The notes under the pieces were generated by a model that did not search any database, was not told where the DNA came from, and saw only the letters and a program-made list of their open reading frames with translations. Of a stretch of 64,000 bases of DNA, positions 3,025-41,266 are shown in pieces. The position numbers were made by a program, and so were the translations under genes. Positions within the stretch are counted from its first letter, which is position 1; every line of letters begins with the position of its first letter. Source of the stretch: Paludibacter sp. (GTDB lineage Bacteria; Bacteroidota; Bacteroidia; Bacteroidales; Paludibacteraceae); NCBI GenBank assembly GCA_031292575.1, contig JARLGX010000015.1:124001-188000 (forward strand), given 5' to 3'.

Positions 3025-5580
3025 ATGATTGCACATCCAATAAATTTGAAAAAATATTTGCCGCTTTCAATTTTCATTTTACTTCTTAATTGCTGTTATA
3101 TTAATGTGTCTGCTCAAAACAGGGTAATTGGGATTGTAACCGATTCAGTTACCAAAGAACCTTTACCGTTTATTTCGGTACTTGTGAGAGGGACTGCTAT
3201 TGGAGCAATGACTGATAATTCAGGTAAATTTTCATTGACAGTTCCAGATGGAGATCAATCAATAAGTCTTAAATCAATAGTATACAAAGAAAAAATTATT
3301 TCATTTACAAACAAAAAACTAATCAATTTAAAAATTCAGCTTTGCCGCACATCGTATGCCATGTCGGAAGTGGTAATACGCCCTAAAAAAGAAAGATATA
3401 AGAAAAAAGGGAATCCGGCTGTTGACTTTGTAAGACGTGTAATTGCATCGAAAGAAAAATACGATCCGCTTAACAAACCGTATTATCATTATGAACATTA
3501 CGAGAAGATTAACATTGCACTAAATAATTTTCAGAAAGATAAAAATAAACACTTGCTGAAAAAATACAAATTCCTGACAAATTATGTCGACACGTCGAAA
3601 CTTTCGGGTAAACCCATTCTGCCTGTTTCCACCAGAGAAATGTTGGAAGATTATTATTATCAAAAATATCCCCGGCTGGAAAAAAGAATTGTAAAGGCTA
3701 AAAAAAGTGCCGGCATTGATGAGATGCTTTCAGAAGATGGCGTCGACCAGTTCTTAAAGGAAGTGTTTAAAGATGTAGACATTTATGATAATAATATCAC
3801 CTTGTTTCTCAAGCGGTTTGTTAGTCCACTTTCTACAGGAGGACCCGATTTCTACAAATATTACTTGCTTGATACAGTGAAAATTGGTGGCGAAAAATGT
3901 GTAGATCTTGGCTTTGTTCCATTTTCATCACAGTCCAGTGGATTTACCGGACATTTATATATCGCACTCGATTCCACTAACTTTGTAAAAAAAGTAAGTC
4001 TCAATTTTCCACGAGACATTAATATCAATTTTATTCAAAACATGTCCATCGAACAGGAATTTAATCGTGCACCCGATGGTACAAGGTTGTTGATGAGCGA
4101 CGATATCAATGTTGAATTTTCTATTCTCTCAAAATCAAAAGGCTTTTTTGCCCAACGAATAAGTACTTATGCAAATCATTCGTTTGATTGTCCAAAAGAT
4201 ACGAGTATTTTTAAACAAAAGGAAAATACCATTCTGTTGGATGGTGCAACTCATAAATCCGAAGATTATTGGCAGCATAACAGGATTGACTCTTTGCCTG
4301 AAAATAAAAAATCGGTTGATAAAATGCTGGTACAGCTTCGTAAAGATCCGCTGTACTACTATACCGAAAAACTCGCTTCTATTTTAATTACTGATTATAT
4401 AAAAACAAGTCCTATCGATAATAAACTAACGCTTGGACCGGTTTATAATCTTATTAGTGCAAATACAGTTGAAGGTGTACGACTTCGACTGGGTGGATAC
4501 ACTACAGCCCGCATCAACGACCGTTGGTTTGCAAACGGTTATGTAGCCTATGGATTAAAAGACCAGAAAATGAAAGGATTGGCTCAGCTTGAATACTCGT
4601 TCAATAAAAAGAAAGAACAAGCCAATGAGTTTCCGGTTAACTCAATCAGGGCTTCGTATAATTACGATCTGGATCGGCTGGGACAACAATATTTGTATAC
4701 TACGTCCGATAATCTTTTTCTCTCGCTGAAAAGGCAAAATGACAACAAAATTACCTATCAGCGCAATCTTGAATTGAGCTACAACAGGGAATTTTACTCG
4801 CAGTTCTCCGGAGGCATTGATTTAAGGTATCGAACGGAATATGCTACACCATATATTCCTTTTATTGATAATACGACAGGACAAAATTTTGCGGCTTATT
4901 CATTGGGAGAAGCTCAGTTAAGACTTCGGTATGCCCCGGGAGAGAAGTACTACCAAACACTCAGCAAACGTCGTTCAATTTCCAGGGATGCTCCTGTTTT
5001 TACTTTCTCGCATACATTTGCGTTAAAGGGTATACTTGGTTCGAATTACGATTATAATCATACTGAAATTGGCTTCCAGAAACGATTTTGGTTCTCGGCC
5101 TATGGAAATACAAATATCATTATTAAGGCCGGAAAAGTTTGGAATAAAGTACCGTTTCCGCTGTTGACCCTTCCTAATGCAAATCTTTCGTATACAATAC
5201 AATACGAATCATACCCGATGATGAATGCGTTGGAATTTATTAATGACCAGTATGTTTCGTGGGATGTAAATTACAACATGAATGGTCTGCTGTTTAATCA
5301 AATACCACTGCTCAAATATATGAAATTAAGAGAGATAGTTTCATTCCGGGGGCTCTATGGAAATCTAAGTAAGCAAAATGATCCTGCTTTTAGTAAAGGG
5401 TTGTATGAATTTCCAACCGGATCGTACAAAATGGCAAATTACCCTTACATGGAAGCCGGAGTAGGAGTTGCTAATATATTTAATTTTCTACGGGTTGATT
5501 ATGTTTGGCGACTTAATTACCTCAATCATCCAAACATTGATAAAAGTGGCATCCGCGTAAGCTTTGATTTCTCATTCTAG
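3025..5580 (+). CDS. DUF5686 family outer-membrane protein with carboxypeptidase-regulatory-like domain
   Basis: Exported protein of 851 residues. A signal peptide spans about 1-31. Residues 33-120 form a carboxypeptidase-regulatory-like beta sandwich (VIGIVTDSVTKEPLPFISV, then the GAMTDNSGKFSL turn). The remainder resembles the DUF5686 family, ending in beta-barrel-like strands and a C-terminal aromatic residue (VSFDFSF), typical of outer-membrane insertion. The biochemical role of DUF5686 is unknown. It lies 20 bases behind the PagL-like gene, so both may act on the outer membrane together. A hairpin terminator follows. Confidence 0.75.
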   Translation: MIAHPINLKKYLPLSIFILLLNCCYINVSAQNRVIGIVTDSVTKEPLPFISVLVRGTAIGAMTDNSGKFSLTVPDGDQSISLKSIVYKEKIISFTNKKLINLKIQLCRTSYAMSEVVIRPKKERYKKKGNPAVDFVRRVIASKEKYDPLNKPYYHYEHYEKINIALNNFQKDKNKHLLKKYKFLTNYVDTSKLSGKPILPVSTREMLEDYYYQKYPRLEKRIVKAKKSAGIDEMLSEDGVDQFLKEVFKDVDIYDNNITLFLKRFVSPLSTGGPDFYKYYLLDTVKIGGEKCVDLGFVPFSSQSSGFTGHLYIALDSTNFVKKVSLNFPRDININFIQNMSIEQEFNRAPDGTRLLMSDDINVEFSILSKSKGFFAQRISTYANHSFDCPKDTSIFKQKENTILLDGATHKSEDYWQHNRIDSLPENKKSVDKMLVQLRKDPLYYYTEKLASILITDYIKTSPIDNKLTLGPVYNLISANTVEGVRLRLGGYTTARINDRWFANGYVAYGLKDQKMKGLAQLEYSFNKKKEQANEFPVNSIRASYNYDLDRLGQQYLYTTSDNLFLSLKRQNDNKITYQRNLELSYNREFYSQFSGGIDLRYRTEYATPYIPFIDNTTGQNFAAYSLGEAQLRLRYAPGEKYYQTLSKRRSISRDAPVFTFSHTFALKGILGSNYDYNHTEIGFQKRFWFSAYGNTNIIIKAGKVWNKVPFPLLTLPNANLSYTIQYESYPMMNALEFINDQYVSWDVNYNMNGLLFNQIPLLKYMKLREIVSFRGLYGNLSKQNDPAFSKGLYEFPTGSYKMANYPYMEAGVGVANIFNFLRVDYVWRLNYLNHPNIDKSGIRVSFDFSF

Positions 5581-32069: not shown

Positions 32070-33404
32070 TTATATTTTCATTCCTGTCATACCGTCTGCC
32101 TTTTTAATTTCCGGTTGATTGCGATTCATCATGCTTGGTTTGCCCGCTAATTGTGCGGCAGCATCTACGCTGAAAGTTCCATCGGTAATAATTTCTTCGC
32201 CTTCATTCAGGCCGCTCATCACCACATAACTGTTTCCGAGCTTCGGACCAATTTCTATTTCGCGCATTTTGAAGTTCATCTCTTTGGTATTTGGTTGCTT
32301 TACATACACTATGGAACGTTTGCCTGTCCACAATACCGCCGAAGCAGGGATGACTAATTTATCCTTGTATTCATTCAGATTGGCTCGCACTATGCCGGAA
32401 GCAAACATTTCGGGTTTCAGTTTTCCGCCTGCATTGCTTACTTCTACGCGCACGTTGGCCACGCGGGTCACCGGATCAATCACCGGATTGATAAATTTGA
32501 TATTAGCCGAGAAATTAACGCCGGGCAACGCTTCCAGCGTAAAGTCTATTTTATTGCCCACTTTCAGAAACGGCAAATCGCTTTCGTACGCATTAAACAA
32601 TACCCAAACATCCGAAAGATTGGCAACATCGAACAGTACCGCTCCTTCCGAAACATAATCGCCGGTATTTACCCGCCGGGCAATTACAATTCCCGAAGTG
32701 TTGGCATACACCTCAAAATTTGTTTTTACCCTGCCCGAATTCTCAATTTGCGCCACCTGATTTGGGGTAAGTTTCCATTGAAGTAGCTTTTCACAGGCTG
32801 CCTCGTAAATTTCGGGTTGCGACGCTTTGCTTTTTGCCGCTTCCAATAATTCCTGCTGCGCCGTAACTAATTCGGGCGAGTAAATCAATGCCAGCAATTG
32901 TCCTTTGCGGACTGGTTCGCCCGTAAAGTTCACCATCAGTTTTTCTATTCGTCCCGAAAATTGTGCCACCTGGTTCTGCAACAACCGTTCGTCGGCCTGC
33001 ACTTTTCCGTATAGTCGAACATCCTTAACCGGTTGGTGAAAACTAACAATTGATGTTGCCACATTGGCCAATTCCATAGCATCTTTGCTGAAATGAATGG
33101 CATCCGAATCCATCTTCGCGTCGCTGTTGTATTCAGTCAACGGGATTAGCTCCATGCCACAAATCGGGCATTTACCCGGATGATCCATCCGGATTTGAGG
33201 ATGCATGGCACAAGTCCATATCTGTTTTTTTGCTTCGGATGTTACTTGTTGTTTATCCGTTGCCTTATTATTGGAATGAAAAAACAACCAGCCAATGAAA
33301 AGTCCGGCAAAAACCAATATAAAACCCCGGAGCCATGAAGAACCCCTAGCCCCTAAAGGGGAACTAAAGTTACTTTTGTTTTGTATATTTTTATTTTTGT
33401 TCAT
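32070..33404 (-). CDS. heavy-metal RND efflux adaptor (CusB type)
   Basis: A 444-residue membrane fusion protein. An N-terminal membrane anchor (about 26-42) is followed by a heavy-metal-binding domain with C65, H68, C79 and C82 (IWTCAMHPQ...GKCPICGMEL). Then come the barrel-sandwich and hairpin (VNFTGEPVRKGQLLALIYSPELVTAQQELLEAA, split at 135-170), the barrel and the membrane-proximal domain (VIPASAVLWTGKRSIVYV). The tail is Met-rich (GKPSMMNRNQPE). It presents metal to the RND pump. Residues 13-22 (FSSPLGARGS) are encoded by a REP-like palindrome arm. The TolC gene is upstream and the pump further upstream, same direction. Confidence 0.9.
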   Translation of the reverse strand: MNKNKNIQNKSNFSSPLGARGSSWLRGFILVFAGLFIGWLFFHSNNKATDKQQVTSEAKKQIWTCAMHPQIRMDHPGKCPICGMELIPLTEYNSDAKMDSDAIHFSKDAMELANVATSIVSFHQPVKDVRLYGKVQADERLLQNQVAQFSGRIEKLMVNFTGEPVRKGQLLALIYSPELVTAQQELLEAAKSKASQPEIYEAACEKLLQWKLTPNQVAQIENSGRVKTNFEVYANTSGIVIARRVNTGDYVSEGAVLFDVANLSDVWVLFNAYESDLPFLKVGNKIDFTLEALPGVNFSANIKFINPVIDPVTRVANVRVEVSNAGGKLKPEMFASGIVRANLNEYKDKLVIPASAVLWTGKRSIVYVKQPNTKEMNFKMREIEIGPKLGNSYVVMSGLNEGEEIITDGTFSVDAAAQLAGKPSMMNRNQPEIKKADGMTGMKI

Positions 33405-33499
33405 CTTTAATGTTGTATTATTATAAATATCATTAGTAATATTTCTTATTCCCCTTTAGGGGTTAGGGGTTCCTTAGTTCCCTTTAGGGGTTTGGGGTC
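33339..33499. repeat. REPIN-like paired palindrome, copy 2, plus a third arm
   Basis: The arm at 33339-33366 (AGAACCCCTAGCCCC...) lies inside the adaptor coding sequence. It is an inverted match to the arm at 33449-33474 (ending AGGGGTTCCT). A third arm at 33476-33499 follows immediately and overlaps the 3' end of the tolC gene, whose TAA stop is the centre of CCCCTAAAGGG. The pair brackets the adaptor start codon and its leader. Confidence 0.85.
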
Positions 33500-34902
33500 A
33501 ATCTCTTCACCCACGCTTCCGCCTTATTGAAATCTGCCACGGCTTCCACTTGTTTCAATTCATAATCCAGCAATTGCTGGCGAATGCGCAAAATATCGCT
33601 TAACCCCGAAGCCGCCGACGAAAATGTTTTTATGGAAATATCCAAGGTTTTCTGAGCCAACCTACTTTGACTTTCGTACAATTTCATACGCCGCCCGGCA
33701 TCGTAGTACAATTGCAATGCCCCGTAATACTCCGTTTGCAACGAATTAGCCGTTGCCTGATAGTTTTGCTCCGATGCTTTTTTAAGAAAGTCGGTTTCCG
33801 TTTGCATGGCTTTGTATTTCTTGCGGTAAACAGGCAACGTCACTGTGAGCATAGGCATAATCATATCCTGTCCGTTCATGGGCGAAGTTGACATTGCGCT
33901 CTTATTGATAACCGAATAATTTACTCCAAGCCCCACCATCGGAAATCCCATTTGCTTCTGCATCTTTTTCCGGGCATCAAGCGATTGCTGTTCGTAATGA
34001 ATCATGCCCAACATAGGATTTTGGGTAAACATAGAATCCTTAACCGATAAATAGGTTATATCCAACGGTTCTAACAAAAGGCTGTCCGGCACATAAACGG
34101 TGGTGGTTAACGGTCGGTTCAACTGACTGTTGAATTGAGCCACAATGACTTGTTCTTCATTTTTCAACGTTGCAATGCTGTTTTCCAAATCGCCCAGTTC
34201 AATCTGAATCTGATACACACCCGACAAACCGGAACTACCGGAAGCTGATCCCATCGAACCGGATGCTGATGAAGCCGAAGAACTGCCGGAAGTTGAACCC
34301 GAACCTCCACCACCCATCACATTCATCCCCGAAGAACCGGAGGAAGCCGCCGGAGCATTCCCTGCTGAAGGTTGCGTACTGCTTCCGCTTATCGAACCTG
34401 TTTTGTATTTTACCAATGTCAACCGTTCAATAGTTTTCAGGAGCTCCACGTTTTTTTCGGAGATGCGGATATTCTGACGGACTTTGTATAAATCGAACCA
34501 TGTTCGCTGCACATCGTAGTATACCTGCAATTTGGCATCCCTGAATGTTTCAAACTTTGCTTTAGCCATCAAACTCATTTCGTCTTTGGCATTTTTGATA
34601 ACGCCAAACCACGGAAACATTTGCATCAGCTTAATATCCGCCACCTGATTGCCCGCAATCAATTCCATCGGACTGAGGTAAACTCCCAGATCCAATTGCG
34701 GATCGGGCAAACTGCCCACCTGTGGCACTTTCTGCAATGCCGCCTGATATTCGTTGTATCGCTGCATGACCGTCGGATTATTTTTAGTAGCCATCTCCAG
34801 ATAATGCATTAGTGAATCCTGCGAATAAACCGAAATACTTTGAAACAAAGTAATGCAGATTATTATGCCAAATGCAATATATTTATTTTTTTTCTTTCTC
34901 AT
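33484..34902 (-). CDS. TolC-family outer-membrane protein of the metal efflux system (CusC type)
   Basis: A 472-residue exported outer-membrane channel. Its signal peptide (about 10-28) is followed by OEP repeats with SLPDPQLDLGVYLSPMELIAG and QMFPWFGVIKNAKDEMSLMA (about 64-115), characteristic of CusC-like proteins of Bacteroidetes. Oddly, about 60 residues (169-228) are nearly all Ser, Gly, Ala and Met and interrupt the helical hairpin before VYQIQIELGDLENSIA. The last residues, LTPNP, come from a REP-like arm that also supplies the stop codon. The adaptor starts 79 bases downstream. Confidence 0.9.
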   Translation of the reverse strand: MRKKKNKYIAFGIIICITLFQSISVYSQDSLMHYLEMATKNNPTVMQRYNEYQAALQKVPQVGSLPDPQLDLGVYLSPMELIAGNQVADIKLMQMFPWFGVIKNAKDEMSLMAKAKFETFRDAKLQVYYDVQRTWFDLYKVRQNIRISEKNVELLKTIERLTLVKYKTGSISGSSTQPSAGNAPAASSGSSGMNVMGGGGSGSTSGSSSASSASGSMGSASGSSGLSGVYQIQIELGDLENSIATLKNEEQVIVAQFNSQLNRPLTTTVYVPDSLLLEPLDITYLSVKDSMFTQNPMLGMIHYEQQSLDARKKMQKQMGFPMVGLGVNYSVINKSAMSTSPMNGQDMIMPMLTVTLPVYRKKYKAMQTETDFLKKASEQNYQATANSLQTEYYGALQLYYDAGRRMKLYESQSRLAQKTLDISIKTFSSAASGLSDILRIRQQLLDYELKQVEAVADFNKAEAWVKRLTPNP

Positions 34903-34961: not shown

Positions 34962-35122
34962 TAAATGTGAATAACCATGGGTGAAACCCACGGTTAGGAA
35001 AACCCTGTAAAACCCACCCTGAAAGGGTTGAACAACATCAGCATGTGATATTCAGCCCCTCCAGGGCTGATTTATAGCTTTCATTTCTCCCACGGGCGAA
35101 GCCCGTGGTTATTCACATTAAA
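34962..35122. repeat. 160-base element with terminal inverted repeats at the cusA 3' end
   Basis: The left end TAAATGTGAATAACCATGGG (34962) and the right end CCCGTGGTTATTCACATTAA (to 35122) are inverted complements with two mismatches. Between them lie smaller hairpins: CCATGGGTGAAACCCACGG, ACCCTGAAAGGGT, TCAGCCCCTCCAGGGCTGA and CCACGGGCGAAGCCCGTGG. The right end contains the TAA stop codon of the pump gene. Confidence 0.85.
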
Positions 35123-38100
35123 GCCTTTCAGGCTTTTCTTTCACAGCTTTTTCCCGCCACATTGCCTGAAACAGCGGAACCACATAAATAGTCATAACTT
35201 GAATAATCATTCCTCCAAACATGGGGATAGCCATTGGCACCATAATGTCAGCCCCTTTTCCGGTAGAAGTAAGGACAGGCAACAAGGCGATTACTGCCAC
35301 AGCCGTAGTCATCATAGCGGGACGAACCCGTTTCTTACCGGCTTCAACCACTGCTTCGCGTACATCGTGTACAGTTTTCGGTTTCTTTTCTTCAAACACC
35401 TGATGAATGTACGTTCCCATAATCACACCATCGTTGGTGGCAATTCCAAACAGGGCGATAAACCCAACCCAGACCGCCACACTCAGATTAATTGGATGGA
35501 TCTGGAAAAGGTCGCGCAGGTTCATTCCGGCAATGGAAAAATCTAAAAACCAACTTTGTCCGTAAAGCCACAACATCATAAACCCACCTGCAAATGCCAC
35601 AAATACGCCCGAGAAATGAATAAACGATGCCGTCACGGTTTTGAACTGGAAGTACAACAAGAGCAAAATCAGCAATAAACTGATAGGAATGACGATAGAT
35701 AACCGTTTGGTTGCCCGTATTTCGTTTTCGTAGTTTCCTGCAAACTGATAGGTTACTCCTGCCGGTAATTTCAATTCGCCTGAATCGATTTTCTTCTGAA
35801 TAATATTGGCAGCCTGATCCACCACATCCACTTCGGCTTTGCCTTCCAGCTTGTCGAAAATAACATAGCCCACCAGGAATGTATCTTCAGTTTTAATCAT
35901 TTGTGCACCGCGTGTATAATGTATGTCGGCAATTTCGCTCAATGGAATTTGCGTACCGTTCATCGCCGGAATCAAAATACGTTTGATATCGTCGGGATTA
36001 TCGCGCAACTCCCGGGCGTACCGCACCCGCATGGGAAAACGTTCCCGCCCTTCTACCGAAGTGCTCAACGTCATTCCTCCCATAGCCACCTGCAACACAT
36101 CTTGCACATCACTTACCGTCATTCCGTAACGCGCCATGGCTTCGCGGTTCAGCTTAATTTCTAAGTAAGGCGCACCCACTGCGCGGTCGTAGAATACCGA
36201 TGAAGCTTTTACCGATGGAACTTCTTTCAGGGCTTTTTCAAACAACATTCCGGCTTTCTCAATCGATTCCAAATCCGGTCCGTACACTTTCAAACCCATT
36301 GGCGCACGCATTCCGGTAGAAAGCATCACCAACCGGGTTTCGATGGGTTGCAGTTTCGGAGCGGAAGTCAAACCCGGAATATCGGTTACTTTCACAATTT
36401 CATTCCAAATATCATTCGGATTTTTAATCTGCGGTCGCCACTGACGGAAATACTCGCCATTATCATCGGAAATTAAACTATCGGAAGGAATGGCTCGAAG
36501 AGCTTCCGTTTTTGCATTGAATGTTTTTCCGTTTTTCAGCAGAAAAGCACCATCACCATTCACTTTGAAACGTTCACGCTGACCATTTTCATCCAACATA
36601 TATTCGGGACGATAATTAATGGTATTTTCGAACATTTGCACCGGAGCGGGATCGAGTGCCGAATTGACACGTCCCCATTTGCCCACCGCCACTTCCACTT
36701 CGGGAATAGCAGACAGCCGCTTATCCAGGAGTTCGATGTATTGCAGATTCTTTTCAATACCCGAATGCGGCATACTGGTTGGCATAAGCAAATACGAACC
36801 TTCGTTCAATGACGGCATAAATTCTTTTCCGATTCCCGGAAATACCCTTGCCGGAGCTTGCCACCCGATTTTCTCAATACCTTTTGCCACCGGTCCGAAA
36901 ACTTTATCAAATCCCTGCCAGGCAAGTAGTCCGAAAAACAACGTAAAAAGAGGAAGTATCAGAAATTTCCATTTATGAATCAATGCCCAACGAAGAATTG
37001 GTTCGTAAAAATGAACCATCGTCATCAGAATGGATAAAATGACAGCTACAATTCCGGTCACAAACAAAAAATTGACCAATAAGCTGTTTGTTGCACCCAA
37101 TGGCAACCATTCTTTGGACAAATAATACACTGCCACCAACACGGTTATGCCAATATTGATATAGTTTGGAAATTCCCTGCGTTTTTTTGTCCAGCGATAA
37201 TCCAGAAGGTTATTGATCCCGATAGCCGTCAGGGCTAAAGCCAGCCATGTATGCAAGGCAATAAGGAAAAATACGCCTGCCACAATAAGACTCCCATTTA
37301 AATAGCGGCGGATTTTTTTTTCATCCATCCGGATATCAAAAATAATGTGTACCAACGTTGGCAACACCACGATGCCGAGAATAAATGCCGATATTAGCGC
37401 AAACGACTTTGTAAATGCGAGCGGATGAAACAATTTTCCTTCGGCTGCCTGCATGGCAAAAACCGGCAAAAAACTCACAATGGTAGTGGCAATGGAAGTT
37501 ACCACGGCTGCGCGCACTTCGGTTGTGGCCAGATAAATGACATTCATCAGTTCTTTGCCACGCACACCTTTGTTTTCGGGCATTTCCAAATGCCGCAAAA
37601 TATTTTCCACATCCACAATGCCAATATCCACCATCACTCCAATGGCAATGGCAATACCCGAAAGGGCTACGATATTTGCTTCCACGCCGAAGAAATGCAT
37701 CAGAATAAATGTCATTAGCACGCCCAACGGCAATAATCCGGCAACAATCACCGAAGCCCGGAGATTTAATACCAACACGATAATAACGATAATGCTGATG
37801 AGGATTTCGTGCGAAAGAGCCGATTCAAGCGTCCCGATGGTTTCTTTAATCAACCCGGTACGGTCGTAAAAAGGCACAACGGTAACCTTGGAAATGCTGC
37901 CATCGGGCAGTTTCTTTTCCGGCAATCCTGCTGCAATTTCTTTGATTTTAGCTTTTACATTCCCGATAACTTCCATCGGATTGGAACCATAACGGGCAAC
38001 GACAACCGCTCCCACGGCTTCGCTTCCATCTTTGTCAAGTCCACCACGACGGGTGGCAGGTCCGAAGGAAGTGTGTGCCACATCTCTTATCCGGACAGGA

Positions 38101-38918
38101 ATATTATTCCGAACCGCCACGACCGAATTATCCAGATCACCCAGATTCTTCACATAGCCCAACCCGCGGATAATGTATTCCACATTATTCAGCTCAATGG
38201 TTTCGGCACCAATATCCAAGTTGCTTTTTTTGACAGCATTCATCACGTCCATCACCGACACACCAAAAGCTTTCAGTGCATCGGGATTGACATCCACCTG
38301 ATATTCTTTGGTGAAGCCGCCCACCGAAGCCACTTCCGAAACACCTTCGGCAGCCGACAAACTGTATTTGACGTAAAAATCCTGAATGGTACGCAATTCT
38401 TGCGGACTCCATCCTCCATTCGGTTTGCCTGTTTTCGGGTTGCACCCTTCGAGTGTGTACCAGAAAATCTGTCCTAAAGCCGTGGCATCAGGTCCCAATG
38501 CCGGTTGAACGCCTTGCGGCAACGTCCCGGCAGGTAATGAATTCAGCTTTTCCAATATCCGCGAGCGGCTCCAGTAAAATTCCACATTATCCTTGAAAAT
38601 AATGTAGATAAACGACATGCCGAACATGGACGTGCTACGAATAGTCTTCACCCCGGGAATGCCGAGCAATGCCGACGTAAGCGGATAACTAATCTGATCC
38701 TGTATATCACGGGGCGAGCGTCCCATCCATTCGGTGGAAACAATTTGCTGGTTGTCACCAATATCGGGAATGGCATCCACCGGAATCGGATCGCGTGGAA
38801 TAACGCCCGTTTTCCAGTTGAACGGTGCATACGCAATTCCCATAACCACAAAGGCTATCAGAAAAATAAAGGTAATCAGCCGGTGATAGAGAAAATAATG
38901 AACGAGTTTGTTGAACAT
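35118..38918 (-). CDS. CusA/CzcA-family heavy-metal RND efflux pump
   Basis: A 1266-residue inner-membrane pump. The N-terminus VVMGIAYAPFNWKTGVIPRDPIPVDAIPDIGDNQQIV (split over 25-60) and SYPLTSALLGIPGVKTIRS are typical of heavy-metal RND pumps. The TM4 motif GVMVDIGIVDVENILRHLE carries the HME-type acidic pair spaced by four. The C-terminal half has DVQDVLQVAMGGM and RVRPAMMTTAVAVIALLPVL. It is some 200 residues longer than E. coli CusA. The extra part is a set of membrane segments near 530-640, as in many Bacteroidetes homologues. With the adaptor and TolC protein it forms a tripartite Cu/Ag-type exporter. Its stop codon lies within a repeat. Confidence 0.9.
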   Translation of the reverse strand: MFNKLVHYFLYHRLITFIFLIAFVVMGIAYAPFNWKTGVIPRDPIPVDAIPDIGDNQQIVSTEWMGRSPRDIQDQISYPLTSALLGIPGVKTIRSTSMFGMSFIYIIFKDNVEFYWSRSRILEKLNSLPAGTLPQGVQPALGPDATALGQIFWYTLEGCNPKTGKPNGGWSPQELRTIQDFYVKYSLSAAEGVSEVASVGGFTKEYQVDVNPDALKAFGVSVMDVMNAVKKSNLDIGAETIELNNVEYIIRGLGYVKNLGDLDNSVVAVRNNIPVRIRDVAHTSFGPATRRGGLDKDGSEAVGAVVVARYGSNPMEVIGNVKAKIKEIAAGLPEKKLPDGSISKVTVVPFYDRTGLIKETIGTLESALSHEILISIIVIIVLVLNLRASVIVAGLLPLGVLMTFILMHFFGVEANIVALSGIAIAIGVMVDIGIVDVENILRHLEMPENKGVRGKELMNVIYLATTEVRAAVVTSIATTIVSFLPVFAMQAAEGKLFHPLAFTKSFALISAFILGIVVLPTLVHIIFDIRMDEKKIRRYLNGSLIVAGVFFLIALHTWLALALTAIGINNLLDYRWTKKRREFPNYINIGITVLVAVYYLSKEWLPLGATNSLLVNFLFVTGIVAVILSILMTMVHFYEPILRWALIHKWKFLILPLFTLFFGLLAWQGFDKVFGPVAKGIEKIGWQAPARVFPGIGKEFMPSLNEGSYLLMPTSMPHSGIEKNLQYIELLDKRLSAIPEVEVAVGKWGRVNSALDPAPVQMFENTINYRPEYMLDENGQRERFKVNGDGAFLLKNGKTFNAKTEALRAIPSDSLISDDNGEYFRQWRPQIKNPNDIWNEIVKVTDIPGLTSAPKLQPIETRLVMLSTGMRAPMGLKVYGPDLESIEKAGMLFEKALKEVPSVKASSVFYDRAVGAPYLEIKLNREAMARYGMTVSDVQDVLQVAMGGMTLSTSVEGRERFPMRVRYARELRDNPDDIKRILIPAMNGTQIPLSEIADIHYTRGAQMIKTEDTFLVGYVIFDKLEGKAEVDVVDQAANIIQKKIDSGELKLPAGVTYQFAGNYENEIRATKRLSIVIPISLLLILLLLYFQFKTVTASFIHFSGVFVAFAGGFMMLWLYGQSWFLDFSIAGMNLRDLFQIHPINLSVAVWVGFIALFGIATNDGVIMGTYIHQVFEEKKPKTVHDVREAVVEAGKKRVRPAMMTTAVAVIALLPVLTSTGKGADIMVPMAIPMFGGMIIQVMTIYVVPLFQAMWREKAVKEKPERL

Positions 38919-39043: not shown

Positions 39044-39397
39044 TTATCTGTATTTACAGCAAGAAGGTAACGCATTGTACGTTTTAGCTTCGGCTCTAAA
39101 CAAAGGAGTATCGTGACCCACATCAGCGATTCTCTTTTGAATATCTACACTTCTTACTTTTGAAGGGTTGTAAACCAACGTCAGCATTTTTGTTTTTTCG
39201 TTCCATACAGCTTTACTGACGCCATCAACTTTTGCAGCTTTCTCTATACGTGCTTTACACGATTCACAATTACCCGAAACTTTGAATGTTTCGGTTTTTG
39301 TCATAACCATTTTTGAATTGTCAGTTGTTTTGGCATACGTAGTTGCACTTACAGTAAGAGCTATAATAGCTACAAGGATATATTTTAATGTTTTCAT
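39044..39397 (-). CDS. exported heavy-metal-associated (HMA) domain protein
   Basis: A 117-residue protein with signal peptide 1-22 and one HMA domain (about 35-100). The metal loop is SGNCESCKARIEKAA, giving C44 and C47, in place of the commoner GMTCxxC. Further on are the standard VDGVSKAVWNEKTKMLTLVYNPSKV and the strand end. The tail ends LPSCCKYR, adding a vicinal Cys pair. It is a periplasmic metallochaperone candidate for the CusA-type pump, transcribed in the same direction 125 bases before it. Confidence 0.85.
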   Translation of the reverse strand: MKTLKYILVAIIALTVSATTYAKTTDNSKMVMTKTETFKVSGNCESCKARIEKAAKVDGVSKAVWNEKTKMLTLVYNPSKVRSVDIQKRIADVGHDTPLFRAEAKTYNALPSCCKYR

Positions 39398-39571: not shown

Positions 39572-39991
39572 TCAAATACGGAATACGCAAATATCGGGGA
39601 GACTGACAGCACTGGCGATGAATTTACCGGGTGGCTGGATAGTTGCGTTTACAGAAGAATTGGTATTGAAAAAATGTAATCCAATAGCCTCAGGGATATA
39701 GAAAACCTGTAAAAGTTGGTTTACAGGGGCATTTATCTGCAAAGCTGACGGATTGTAATTGTTGTCAACGGCATAAAATGCCATCTCGTCTTTACAGCAG
39801 CTTGGCGCATTGAAACTTTTCCCATTCGATGTTGGGATTGTAGCCATTTGCATACCGCAACTGGCTTTTGCATCATCCAACGACCATTTTACAGCAGCCA
39901 ACTCACCTCCGCAATAATGCGAAGCCAAGCTAAGATGCATCCCCGAAAGGAGTATCAAACCTGCAAATAATATGGATAATAGTTTTTTCAT
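39572..39991 (-). CDS. exported Cys-rich protein with HYCGGE motif
   Basis: A 139-residue protein with a signal peptide (about 1-23). The mature part starts HYCGGELAAVKWSLDDAKASCGM, followed by PSCCKDEM. The Cys residues C27, C45, C65 and C66 and His25 are spaced as in small Bacteroidetes proteins that begin HYC(M/G)G and are often found beside copper-resistance genes. No catalytic motif is seen. Metal binding is inferred from the Cys/His pattern and from the adjacent HMA and RND genes. The gene lies at the upstream end of the minus-strand metal cluster. Confidence 0.65.
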   Translation of the reverse strand: MKKLLSILFAGLILLSGMHLSLASHYCGGELAAVKWSLDDAKASCGMQMATIPTSNGKSFNAPSCCKDEMAFYAVDNNYNPSALQINAPVNQLLQVFYIPEAIGLHFFNTNSSVNATIQPPGKFIASAVSLPDICVFRI

Positions 39992-40276: not shown

Positions 40277-40915
40277 ATGATTCATCAACAGAAATTATAT
40301 AAGCGAGCTTACCAATTGAGCTTATTCACGATATTCTATAATGTTATTGAAGGTGTGATTTCAATACTTATGGGGTATGAAGATGCAACTCTCACACTTT
40401 TTGGCTTTGGAATGGACAGTTTTATAGAAGTAATGTCGGGTATGGGAATTGCTGTAATGGTTTTACGCATTTGGCTAAACCCTGACAGTCCTAAAAGCGA
40501 TTTCGAAATAAATGCACTTAAAATAACGGGAACGGCCTTTTATCTTTTGTCAGCCGGATTATTGGTTGGCATTATATTTAATCTTCTCAATCATCATAAA
40601 CCCGAAACCACTTTGTGGGGTGTGGTTATTTCGTTGGTTTCAATTGCAGTAATGGTATGGCTTATGAATGCAAAAAAAAAGGTAGGCAAAGAACTAAATT
40701 CAGCAGCCATTATTGCCGACAGTAATTGTACAAAAGTGTGTGTTTATATGTCACTCGTTTTACTTGCTTCTAGCCTGATATACCAACTAACCGGATTTGC
40801 TTATGCCGACCTGATTGGAACTGCCGGGTTGATTTATTTCTCCATTACCGAAGGAAAAGAAGCCTTTGACAAAGCAAAAGGGAAAGAATTTGGCTGCGAT
40901 ACATGCATTGATTAA
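40277..40915 (+). CDS. CDF-like cation transporter with altered metal site
   Basis: A 212-residue protein with about six membrane segments, resembling the membrane half of cation diffusion facilitators but lacking their cytoplasmic C-terminal domain. In TM2 the usual HxxxD or DxxxD reads D47xxxE51 (FGMDSFIEVMSG). In TM5 the usual ADxxHxxxD reads A147 D148 xx C151 xxx C155 (IIADSNCTKVCVY). The C-terminus ends GCDTCID, a CxxC pair. A soft-metal substrate is inferred. It is divergent from the copper-type cluster, and a YnfA gene starts 21 bases downstream. Confidence 0.75.
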   Translation: MIHQQKLYKRAYQLSLFTIFYNVIEGVISILMGYEDATLTLFGFGMDSFIEVMSGMGIAVMVLRIWLNPDSPKSDFEINALKITGTAFYLLSAGLLVGIIFNLLNHHKPETTLWGVVISLVSIAVMVWLMNAKKKVGKELNSAAIIADSNCTKVCVYMSLVLLASSLIYQLTGFAYADLIGTAGLIYFSITEGKEAFDKAKGKEFGCDTCID

Positions 40916-40936: not shown

Positions 40937-41266
40937 ATGACATTTGTAAGAACAATATTAATATTCATACTAGCCGGCTTCTGCGAAATAGGTGGGGGTT
41001 ATCTGGTATGGCTTTGCATTAAAGATAATAAGCCCTGGTGGTATGGTGTGGCGGGTGGAATTATTCTTGCGCTTTACGGAGTAGTGGCTACACTTCAAAC
41101 TTCAAATTTTGCCCGGGTCTACGCCACTTATGGTGGAATATTCATAGTTATGTCCTTACTCTGGGCATACAAAATGGATAATTTTGTCCCCGACAAATAC
41201 GACATCCTAGGAGCCGTAATTGCAATAATCGGAGTGCTGATTATTTATTTTGCACCTCGTAACTAA
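40937..41266 (+). CDS. YnfA/UPF0060 family membrane protein
   Basis: A 109-residue protein with four membrane helices. It matches the UPF0060 family over its full length: ILAGFCEIGGGYLVWLCIK near 12-30, GGIILALYGVVATLQ, FARVYATYGGIFIVMSLLW, and the closing DKYDILGAVIAIIGVLIIYF. Members resemble small multidrug-resistance transporters, but their substrate is not established. The gene starts 21 bases after the CDF-like transporter, so the two are probably one transcript. Confidence 0.9.
   Translation: MTFVRTILIFILAGFCEIGGGYLVWLCIKDNKPWWYGVAGGIILALYGVVATLQTSNFARVYATYGGIFIVMSLLWAYKMDNFVPDKYDILGAVIAIIGVLIIYFAPRN

Follow-up and report, generated by a model that had tools for sequence, protein, structure and literature searches.

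A separate branch of cation diffusion facilitators with cysteines aligned to the transport site, seen from a Paludibacter protein lacking the C-terminal domain

The gene described here lies in a 64,000-nucleotide stretch of a Paludibacter sp. contig (the window) and encodes a short cation diffusion facilitator (CDF) in which two cysteines, C151 and C155, align with the His and Asp of transmembrane helix 5 (TM5) in the metal transport site (A-site) of canonical members. Relative to the nine canonical CDFs with which they were compared, the Cys-site proteins form a separate branch, and C155 was kept in every one of more than 150 relatives examined. We propose, with a probability of about 0.5, that members of this branch are proton-coupled exporters of divalent thiophilic metal ions, with Cd2+ or Pb2+ as the first candidates and Zn2+ as a possible one. 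CDF metal selectivity has been argued from the four A-site residues, and the text of an 18-clade survey holds no quartet with cysteine (PMC5703985).

Fold and metal site of the window protein

The open reading frame (ORF) starts with ATG and is free of internal stops. Its features are as follows.

40277..40915, + strand: Cys-site CDF transporter, 212 residues, six predicted helices, no C-terminal domain (ORF, profile, structure model, fold match)
40349..40351, + strand: codon of E25 in TM1, a family-invariant Glu that the nine canonical CDFs lack (alignments)
40415..40429, + strand: codons from D47 to E51 (D-x3-E), the putative contribution of TM2 to the A-site (sequence, conservation, FieF profile comparison)
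40718..40741, + strand: codons from D148 to C155 (D-x2-C-x3-C), the putative contribution of TM5 (sequence, conservation, FieF profile comparison)
40895..40906, + strand: CxxC tail, codons of C207, D208, T209 and C210 (sequence; low-confidence stretch of the model)

By profile and predicted fold the window protein is a CDF. It matches PF01545 (Cation_efflux) with 27.2 bits against a cut-off of 26.6, scores far under the cut-offs of the NCBIfam CDF models, and is assigned the six-helix CDF fold by structure prediction and fold match. Across the family, PF01545 is matched by 99 of the 100 members aligned (E ≤ 1e-3, the best being 1.3e-20). The C-terminal domain, PF16916 (ZT_dimer), was matched by none of 100 members, being absent from the five families matched at E ≤ 1e-3; a Pfam scan of neighbouring genes does detect it in three CzcD-type proteins. 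In the structure model the final helix ends at residue 200, and the tail (residues 206–212, predicted local distance difference test score <50) closes the chain with FGCDTCID, which contains C207 and C210.

TM2 carries D47 and E51 within GMDSFIEV, and TM5 carries D148, C151 and C155 within IIADSNCTKVCVYM. A phmmer comparison with FieF/YiiP chains, which covered residues 85–198 only, paired C151 with H153 and C155 with D157 (weak, E = 0.025; FieF residue numbering was checked). Profile comparison with E. coli FieF spanned both helices and placed D47/E51 on D45/D49 and C151/C155 on H153/D157 (also weak; probability 8.6, E = 0.0039). The same columns were assigned in TM2 and TM5 by a multiple alignment with the nine canonical CDFs, which include one from the same genome (L001; row L002 is not counted). 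As these three comparisons, each weak or indirect alone, agree, we accept the placing and consider it plausible, from alignment to YiiP/FieF, that C151 and C155 sit in the A-site together with D47 and E51. In the canonical nine, TM2 has D, H, N or E and then D (N once), and TM5 has H (D once) and then D; the window protein quartet is D-E / C-C. The usual A-site pattern (TM2 mostly H/D/N/E-x3-D, TM5 H/D-x3-D) is thus replaced by DxxxE and CxxxC.

Compared with YiiP/FieF of Shewanella and E. coli (A-site DD-HD), to which it is 18% identical in structural alignment, the window protein lacks the C-terminal domain, has Glu for the second TM2 Asp and an extra Glu in TM1, and carries Cys in place of both the TM5 His (E, Q or D in other relatives) and the TM5 Asp. 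A preliminary description of this DNA had called the protein CDF-like, with an altered A-site at D47/E51 and C151/C155, no C-terminal domain and a GCDTCID end. The ORF sequence confirms these residues, and the profile, fold and alignment results agree with the rest.

A separate branch with an invariant cysteine

Of 395 genomes of the phylum searched at the protein level, 105 held a match at E ≤ 0.001, and 79 near-full-length matches were combined with the window protein into a set of 80. D47, E51 and C155 are present in all 80 and C151 in 75; the other five carry E (2), Q (2) or D (1). TM5 therefore reads [CEQD]xxxC in 80/80, and neither of Montanini's group motifs, HxxxD (Zn, Fe/Zn) or DxxxD (Mn), occurs. 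A larger set of 118, 80 of whose loci came from a pattern search with the TM2 D and E fixed, includes Chloroflexota, Ignavibacteria, one Brevinematales and one Aminicenantes metagenome-assembled genome, and eight plasmid proteins. Here C155 is again invariant (118/118) and C151 occurs in 111; the seven exceptions all come from plasmids and have E (5) or Q (2) there. Since C151 is replaced in several relatives, one site Cys appears to suffice. The invariant columns in 100 sequences are E25, G33, G45, D47, E51, S122, C155 and D178, and E25 has no counterpart in any of the nine canonical CDFs aligned. At least two tail cysteines were counted in 76/80 and 108/118 sequences.

A plasmid search matched 75 records, with 29–37% identity among the matches listed (40 of 75); a second plasmid query matched 515, and most among the 60 matches listed are canonical CDFs by annotation. 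The plasmid proteins, annotated as 'cation transporter' and found in Actinomycetota and others, belong to the same branch, show the D-E-x-C site where it was read, and have an ArsR partner. In most of those read, position 151 is E or Q, with Cys in Alicyclobacillus and Asp in Marinibacterium, and some have longer tails than the window protein.

In a tree of 47 family members and the nine canonical CDFs, an outgroup limited to these nine long branches, all Cys-site proteins fall on one side of a branch with a Shimodaira–Hasegawa-like approximate likelihood ratio (SH-aLRT) of 100. The same split was recovered after removal of columns 25, 47, 51, 151 and 155 (ultrafast bootstrap 100, SH-aLRT 99). 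The double-Cys rows need one change on the first tree and two on the column-stripped one; on the first, the Alicyclobacillus protein groups with a large Bacteroidota/Chloroflexota cluster. The group is accordingly recognized by a TM1 Glu, TM2 DxxxE, TM5 [CEQD]xxxC, lack of the C-terminal domain and a single branch. The branch, which looks deep and widespread, has the six-helix transmembrane domain alone, and its aligned A-site is D-E / [C,E,Q,D]-C where canonical members have [H,D]-D / H-D.

The separate clade that the preliminary description had suggested is thereby recovered. It had also named beforehand loss of the Cys pair among homologues as grounds for giving up its reading, and this check does not refute it: C155 never varies and the pair is common, but C151 is not family-wide. 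The window protein has the CxxC tail; two or more tail cysteines are common, not universal, among relatives.

Candidate substrates and the genes beside relatives

YiiP exchanges Zn2+ for 2–3 protons, with TM5 His155 and Asp159 as a coupled proton pair (PMC10617992). Because C151 and C155 align with this proton-carrying His and Asp, we infer that thiols could take over the exchange. On entry from the cytoplasm an ion would be bound by D47, E51 and the thiolate(s) of C155 and C151 in TM5; metal binding would release the thiol protons and metal release would re-bind them, in a metal/H+ antiport. In place of the missing C-terminal domain, the flexible Cys tail may gather metal at the inner face of the membrane, and E25 is a further candidate for proton handling. 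The FieF variants H153C and D157C are partially active (table of PMC1868760), so either position can hold a Cys in a protein that still transports.

A site of two invariant carboxylates with one or two thiols would be better suited to a divalent ion (Cd, Pb or Zn) than to Cu(I) or Ag(I), and we place Cd or Pb first because of the linked sensors, with Zn next. Among 15 plasmid loci viewed out of the search matches, an ArsR/SmtB gene lies at most two genes away in 12 (L034–L038, L040, L041, L137–L141), and in seven of these (L034, L035, L036, L041, L137, L138, L141) its frame overlaps that of the transporter by 1 or 4 bases. The three loci with no such gene nearby are L039, L135, whose transporter is truncated to 95 residues, and L136, where the fourth gene along carries the annotation cmtR. 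The scan took in 14 regulators: one from each of the 12 loci, this distant one of L136, and one from L020, which belongs to a Bacteroidota genome and has the order ArsR, Cys-site CDF, CzcD. All 14 pass HTH_metalloreg, and three (L041, L137, L141) pass the equivalog for CmtR, a Cd(II)/Pb(II) sensor; two more score 120–125 against its cut-off of 150 and the other nine lower. For the L141 regulator the match to 2jsc (listed as Rv1994c) reaches 1.3e-34, and its CLRGC pair and a later Cys are aligned; we take 2jsc to be CmtR and the aligned cysteines to be its metal ligands. A CLxxC segment was read in 11 of the 14, and the other three (L020, L038, L040) carry LCVCD, which presumably fits CadC-like sensors.

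CmtR senses Cd(II) through ligands from helix α4 (PMC10509353). In Frankia, a possible operon that pairs a Cd/Pb-type (CmtR-like) ArsR regulator with a CDF exporter was noted earlier (PMC4531530); the partner there is CzcD, a canonical CDF, and the available text of that paper does not mention the Cys-site type.

In the window the neighbouring genes are the following.

40937..41266, + strand: YnfA/UPF0060 small membrane protein; its gene lies 21 bp past the end of the CDF gene, probably in one operon with it (ORF, profiles)
39572..39991, − strand: HYC_CC_PP family small protein, divergent (profile)
39044..39397, − strand: heavy-metal-associated (HMA) domain protein, probably exported, with a signal-like N-terminus by inspection (profiles)
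35118..38918, − strand: CusA/CzcA-family heavy-metal RND pump (TIGR00914)
33484..34902, − strand: 472-residue protein adjoining the pump, by inspection its outer-membrane factor
32070..33404, − strand: 444-residue protein, by inspection a CusB-like RND adaptor with an HPx6PGxCPxCGM segment

The pump passes TIGR00914 with 772 bits (cut-off 701); Cu/Ag systems cannot be told from Zn/Cd/Co ones by this model. The divergent efflux cluster of the preliminary description is therefore of the CusA/CzcA family, and its Cu/Ag label is more specific than this model. A divergent neighbour need not share its function with the Cys-site CDF gene.

An exporter of Cu(I)/Ag(I), in which the thiolates hold a monovalent soft ion, would match this RND system and the adjoining HMA-domain protein. 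In the close Bacteroidota relatives L046–L049 the gene lies upstream of genes for an AraC-type CxxC regulator and a P-type ATPase, though not closely in L047; in L048 and L049 it stands 14 bp before the regulator, which has CxxC at its N-terminus, and the ATPase follows. The L048 ATPase, the one classified among these four, clears the cut-offs of both the copper model TIGR01511 (605 bits against 397) and the cadmium-family model (391 against 313.5). CopC/CtaG/SCO-type genes occur in 5/15 of the plasmid stretches, and the annotation of E. coli ZitB lists Cu(2+) export among others. The two invariant carboxylates make a monovalent ion less likely, much of the family has a single site Cys, the scanned regulators of relatives are ArsR/SmtB proteins with three of CmtR type, and we know of no CDF shown to move Cu(I). 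On balance we regard Cu(I)/Ag(I) export as unlikely. The soft metal of the preliminary description remains plausible once narrowed to divalent Cd, Pb or Zn, given the thiols and the CmtR-type regulators; the evidence lends little to its Cu(I)/Ag part, and its 'rather than zinc' is not borne out. Overall, its interpretation is partly supported.

Alternatively, the protein could be an ordinary Zn (or Zn/Fe/Mn) homeostasis exporter in which the cysteines alter affinity or proton coupling and leave the metal unchanged. This would follow the usual habit of the family and accord with the partly active FieF Cys variants (PMC1868760), the conserved chromosomal place of the gene in Anaerolineae, the CzcD-type CDF genes that directly adjoin it in L020, L032, L038 and L061 (another is by L044), and two FeoA genes among immediate neighbours. 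However, the TM5 Asp is described as highly conserved and functionally important in Montanini's Zn and Fe/Zn groups (PMC1868760), and its complete replacement by Cys, together with the CmtR-type partners, suggests a changed substrate; we find an unchanged metal somewhat unlikely.

Neighbours were also counted more broadly. One-representative searches over the 118 loci, whose counts overlap and miss some cases known from plasmid annotations, found CopA-type genes at 7, CusB-type at 7, ArsR at 7, RND at 5, CzcD at 5, AraC-type at 5 and YnfA at 3; many loci span only 3.6 kb. In L052 and L060 the gene is placed after RND genes. A Pfam tally took in 90 of the 124 genes immediately next to the transporter on the same strand, with Chloroflexota and plasmid rows set aside, and gave methyltransferases 7, DUF5362 6, CDF 3, DUF302 2, FeoA 2 and AraC 2. 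The S-adenosylmethionine (SAM) methyltransferases in this tally, four of them from close kin, would suit a protein that is not a divalent-cation exporter as such and instead carries mercurials or trivalent or methylated metalloids, or senses redox state in the membrane. So would the ArsM-like look, by inspection, of the methyltransferase partner in L033, the thiol-redox genes in 7/15 plasmid stretches and the LCVCD regulators, which fit As(III) sensors. Since D47, E51 and D178 are fully kept, as for a cation, and most immediate neighbours are not methyltransferases, we hold this to be very unlikely.

Several points weigh against divalent thiophilic metal export as well. The pairwise FieF comparisons are individually weak, and C151 is replaced by E/Q/D in 5/80 Bacteroidota proteins and by E/Q in 7/8 plasmid proteins. 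By raw counts, metal genes lie near a minority of relatives only, and many loci, often short, show none; many neighbour families have no metal links among the families listed (25 of 114), and in Anaerolineae the gene has a recurrent housekeeping chromosomal place. Arsenic sensors have a C-[V/A]-C motif (PMC10509353), so the LCVCD regulators of L020, L038 and L040 may fit arsenic too. Mutation of the TM2 motif of ZnT10 did not abolish Mn efflux (PMC7926707), and the correlation between A-site and metal is limited (PMC5703985). As site composition and metal are only loosely linked, the metal is something we infer.

A tentative and rather doubtful extension is that the whole branch rebuilt its transport site on thiols. 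In place of the His-Asp proton pair, TM5 would carry one cysteine or two (i, i+4), exchange would run through thiol deprotonation, and the result would be a minimal, domain-less Cd2+/Pb2+ exporter wired to CmtR-like or CadC-like regulators in several lineages.

Relation to known CDFs and further observations

CDFs without a C-terminal domain are already known. MmCDF3 lacks this domain and binds Zn and Cd; proteins of its kind share the class of the window protein, a likeness drawn from description and not from A-site letters. MmCDF3 of Maricaulis maris is named in PMC4995437, and CDFs of this class have been noted in marine and soil bacteria and in pathogens, with a function called unclear (PMC6465983). 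The animal protein TMEM163 has a short C-terminus and a TM2 motif that begins with Asp, and zinc transport is reported for it (PMC7926707); in a comparison of TM2 by the description given there, its DxxxD stands against DxxxE in the window protein. The A-site quartets in the text of PMC5703985 are HD-HD, ND-DD, DD-DD, DD-HD, EN-HD, HH-DH and HD-[E/H]D, and the TM5 motifs given in PMC1868760 are HxxxD, DxxxD, TxxxS/T and VxxxD, none with Cys. No description of a Cys A-site was found in the literature searched. A common, unnamed branch with an invariant Cys where Asp is highly conserved amounts to a natural mutant set, with which one can ask whether a thiol can carry the exchanged protons, how strongly A-site chemistry determines the metal and what purpose the C-terminal domain serves. 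Plasmid and chromosomal genes of several phyla would also gain a sharper name than 'cation transporter'.

Some associations stand apart from these questions. A canonical CDF (L001, G000:C35:121527-122105; HxxxD in both TM2 and TM5) is encoded on the same contig about 42 kb from the window protein, outside the window. YnfA/UPF0060 genes near the Cys-site CDF gene in 3/118 scanned loci are those of the window, L048 and L038, and in L135 (Ca. Manganitrophus) a YnfA gene overlaps the truncated, 95-residue Cys-site CDF by one base (4678-5294). At about ten Anaerolineae loci among L071–L092 the gene is near those for a SpoU-type rRNA methylase, a G5-like secreted protein and ksgA (names by inspection). 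SAM methyltransferase genes, some called by inspection only, lie beside or near the transporter across phyla (L033, L034, L040, L042, L054, L055, L096, L098, L099, L101, L106, L136, L137). The thiol-redox genes of the plasmid stretches (VKOR, DsbA, CcdA, thioredoxin-like, TlpA) are in L035, L039, L041, L136, L137, L138 and L140, and signal peptidase II (lspA) is found in 4/15 (L034, L039, L136, L140). In six Bacteroidota loci (L008, L013, L021, L025, L027, L030) the gene for a DUF5362 small membrane protein lies directly 5' of the transporter.
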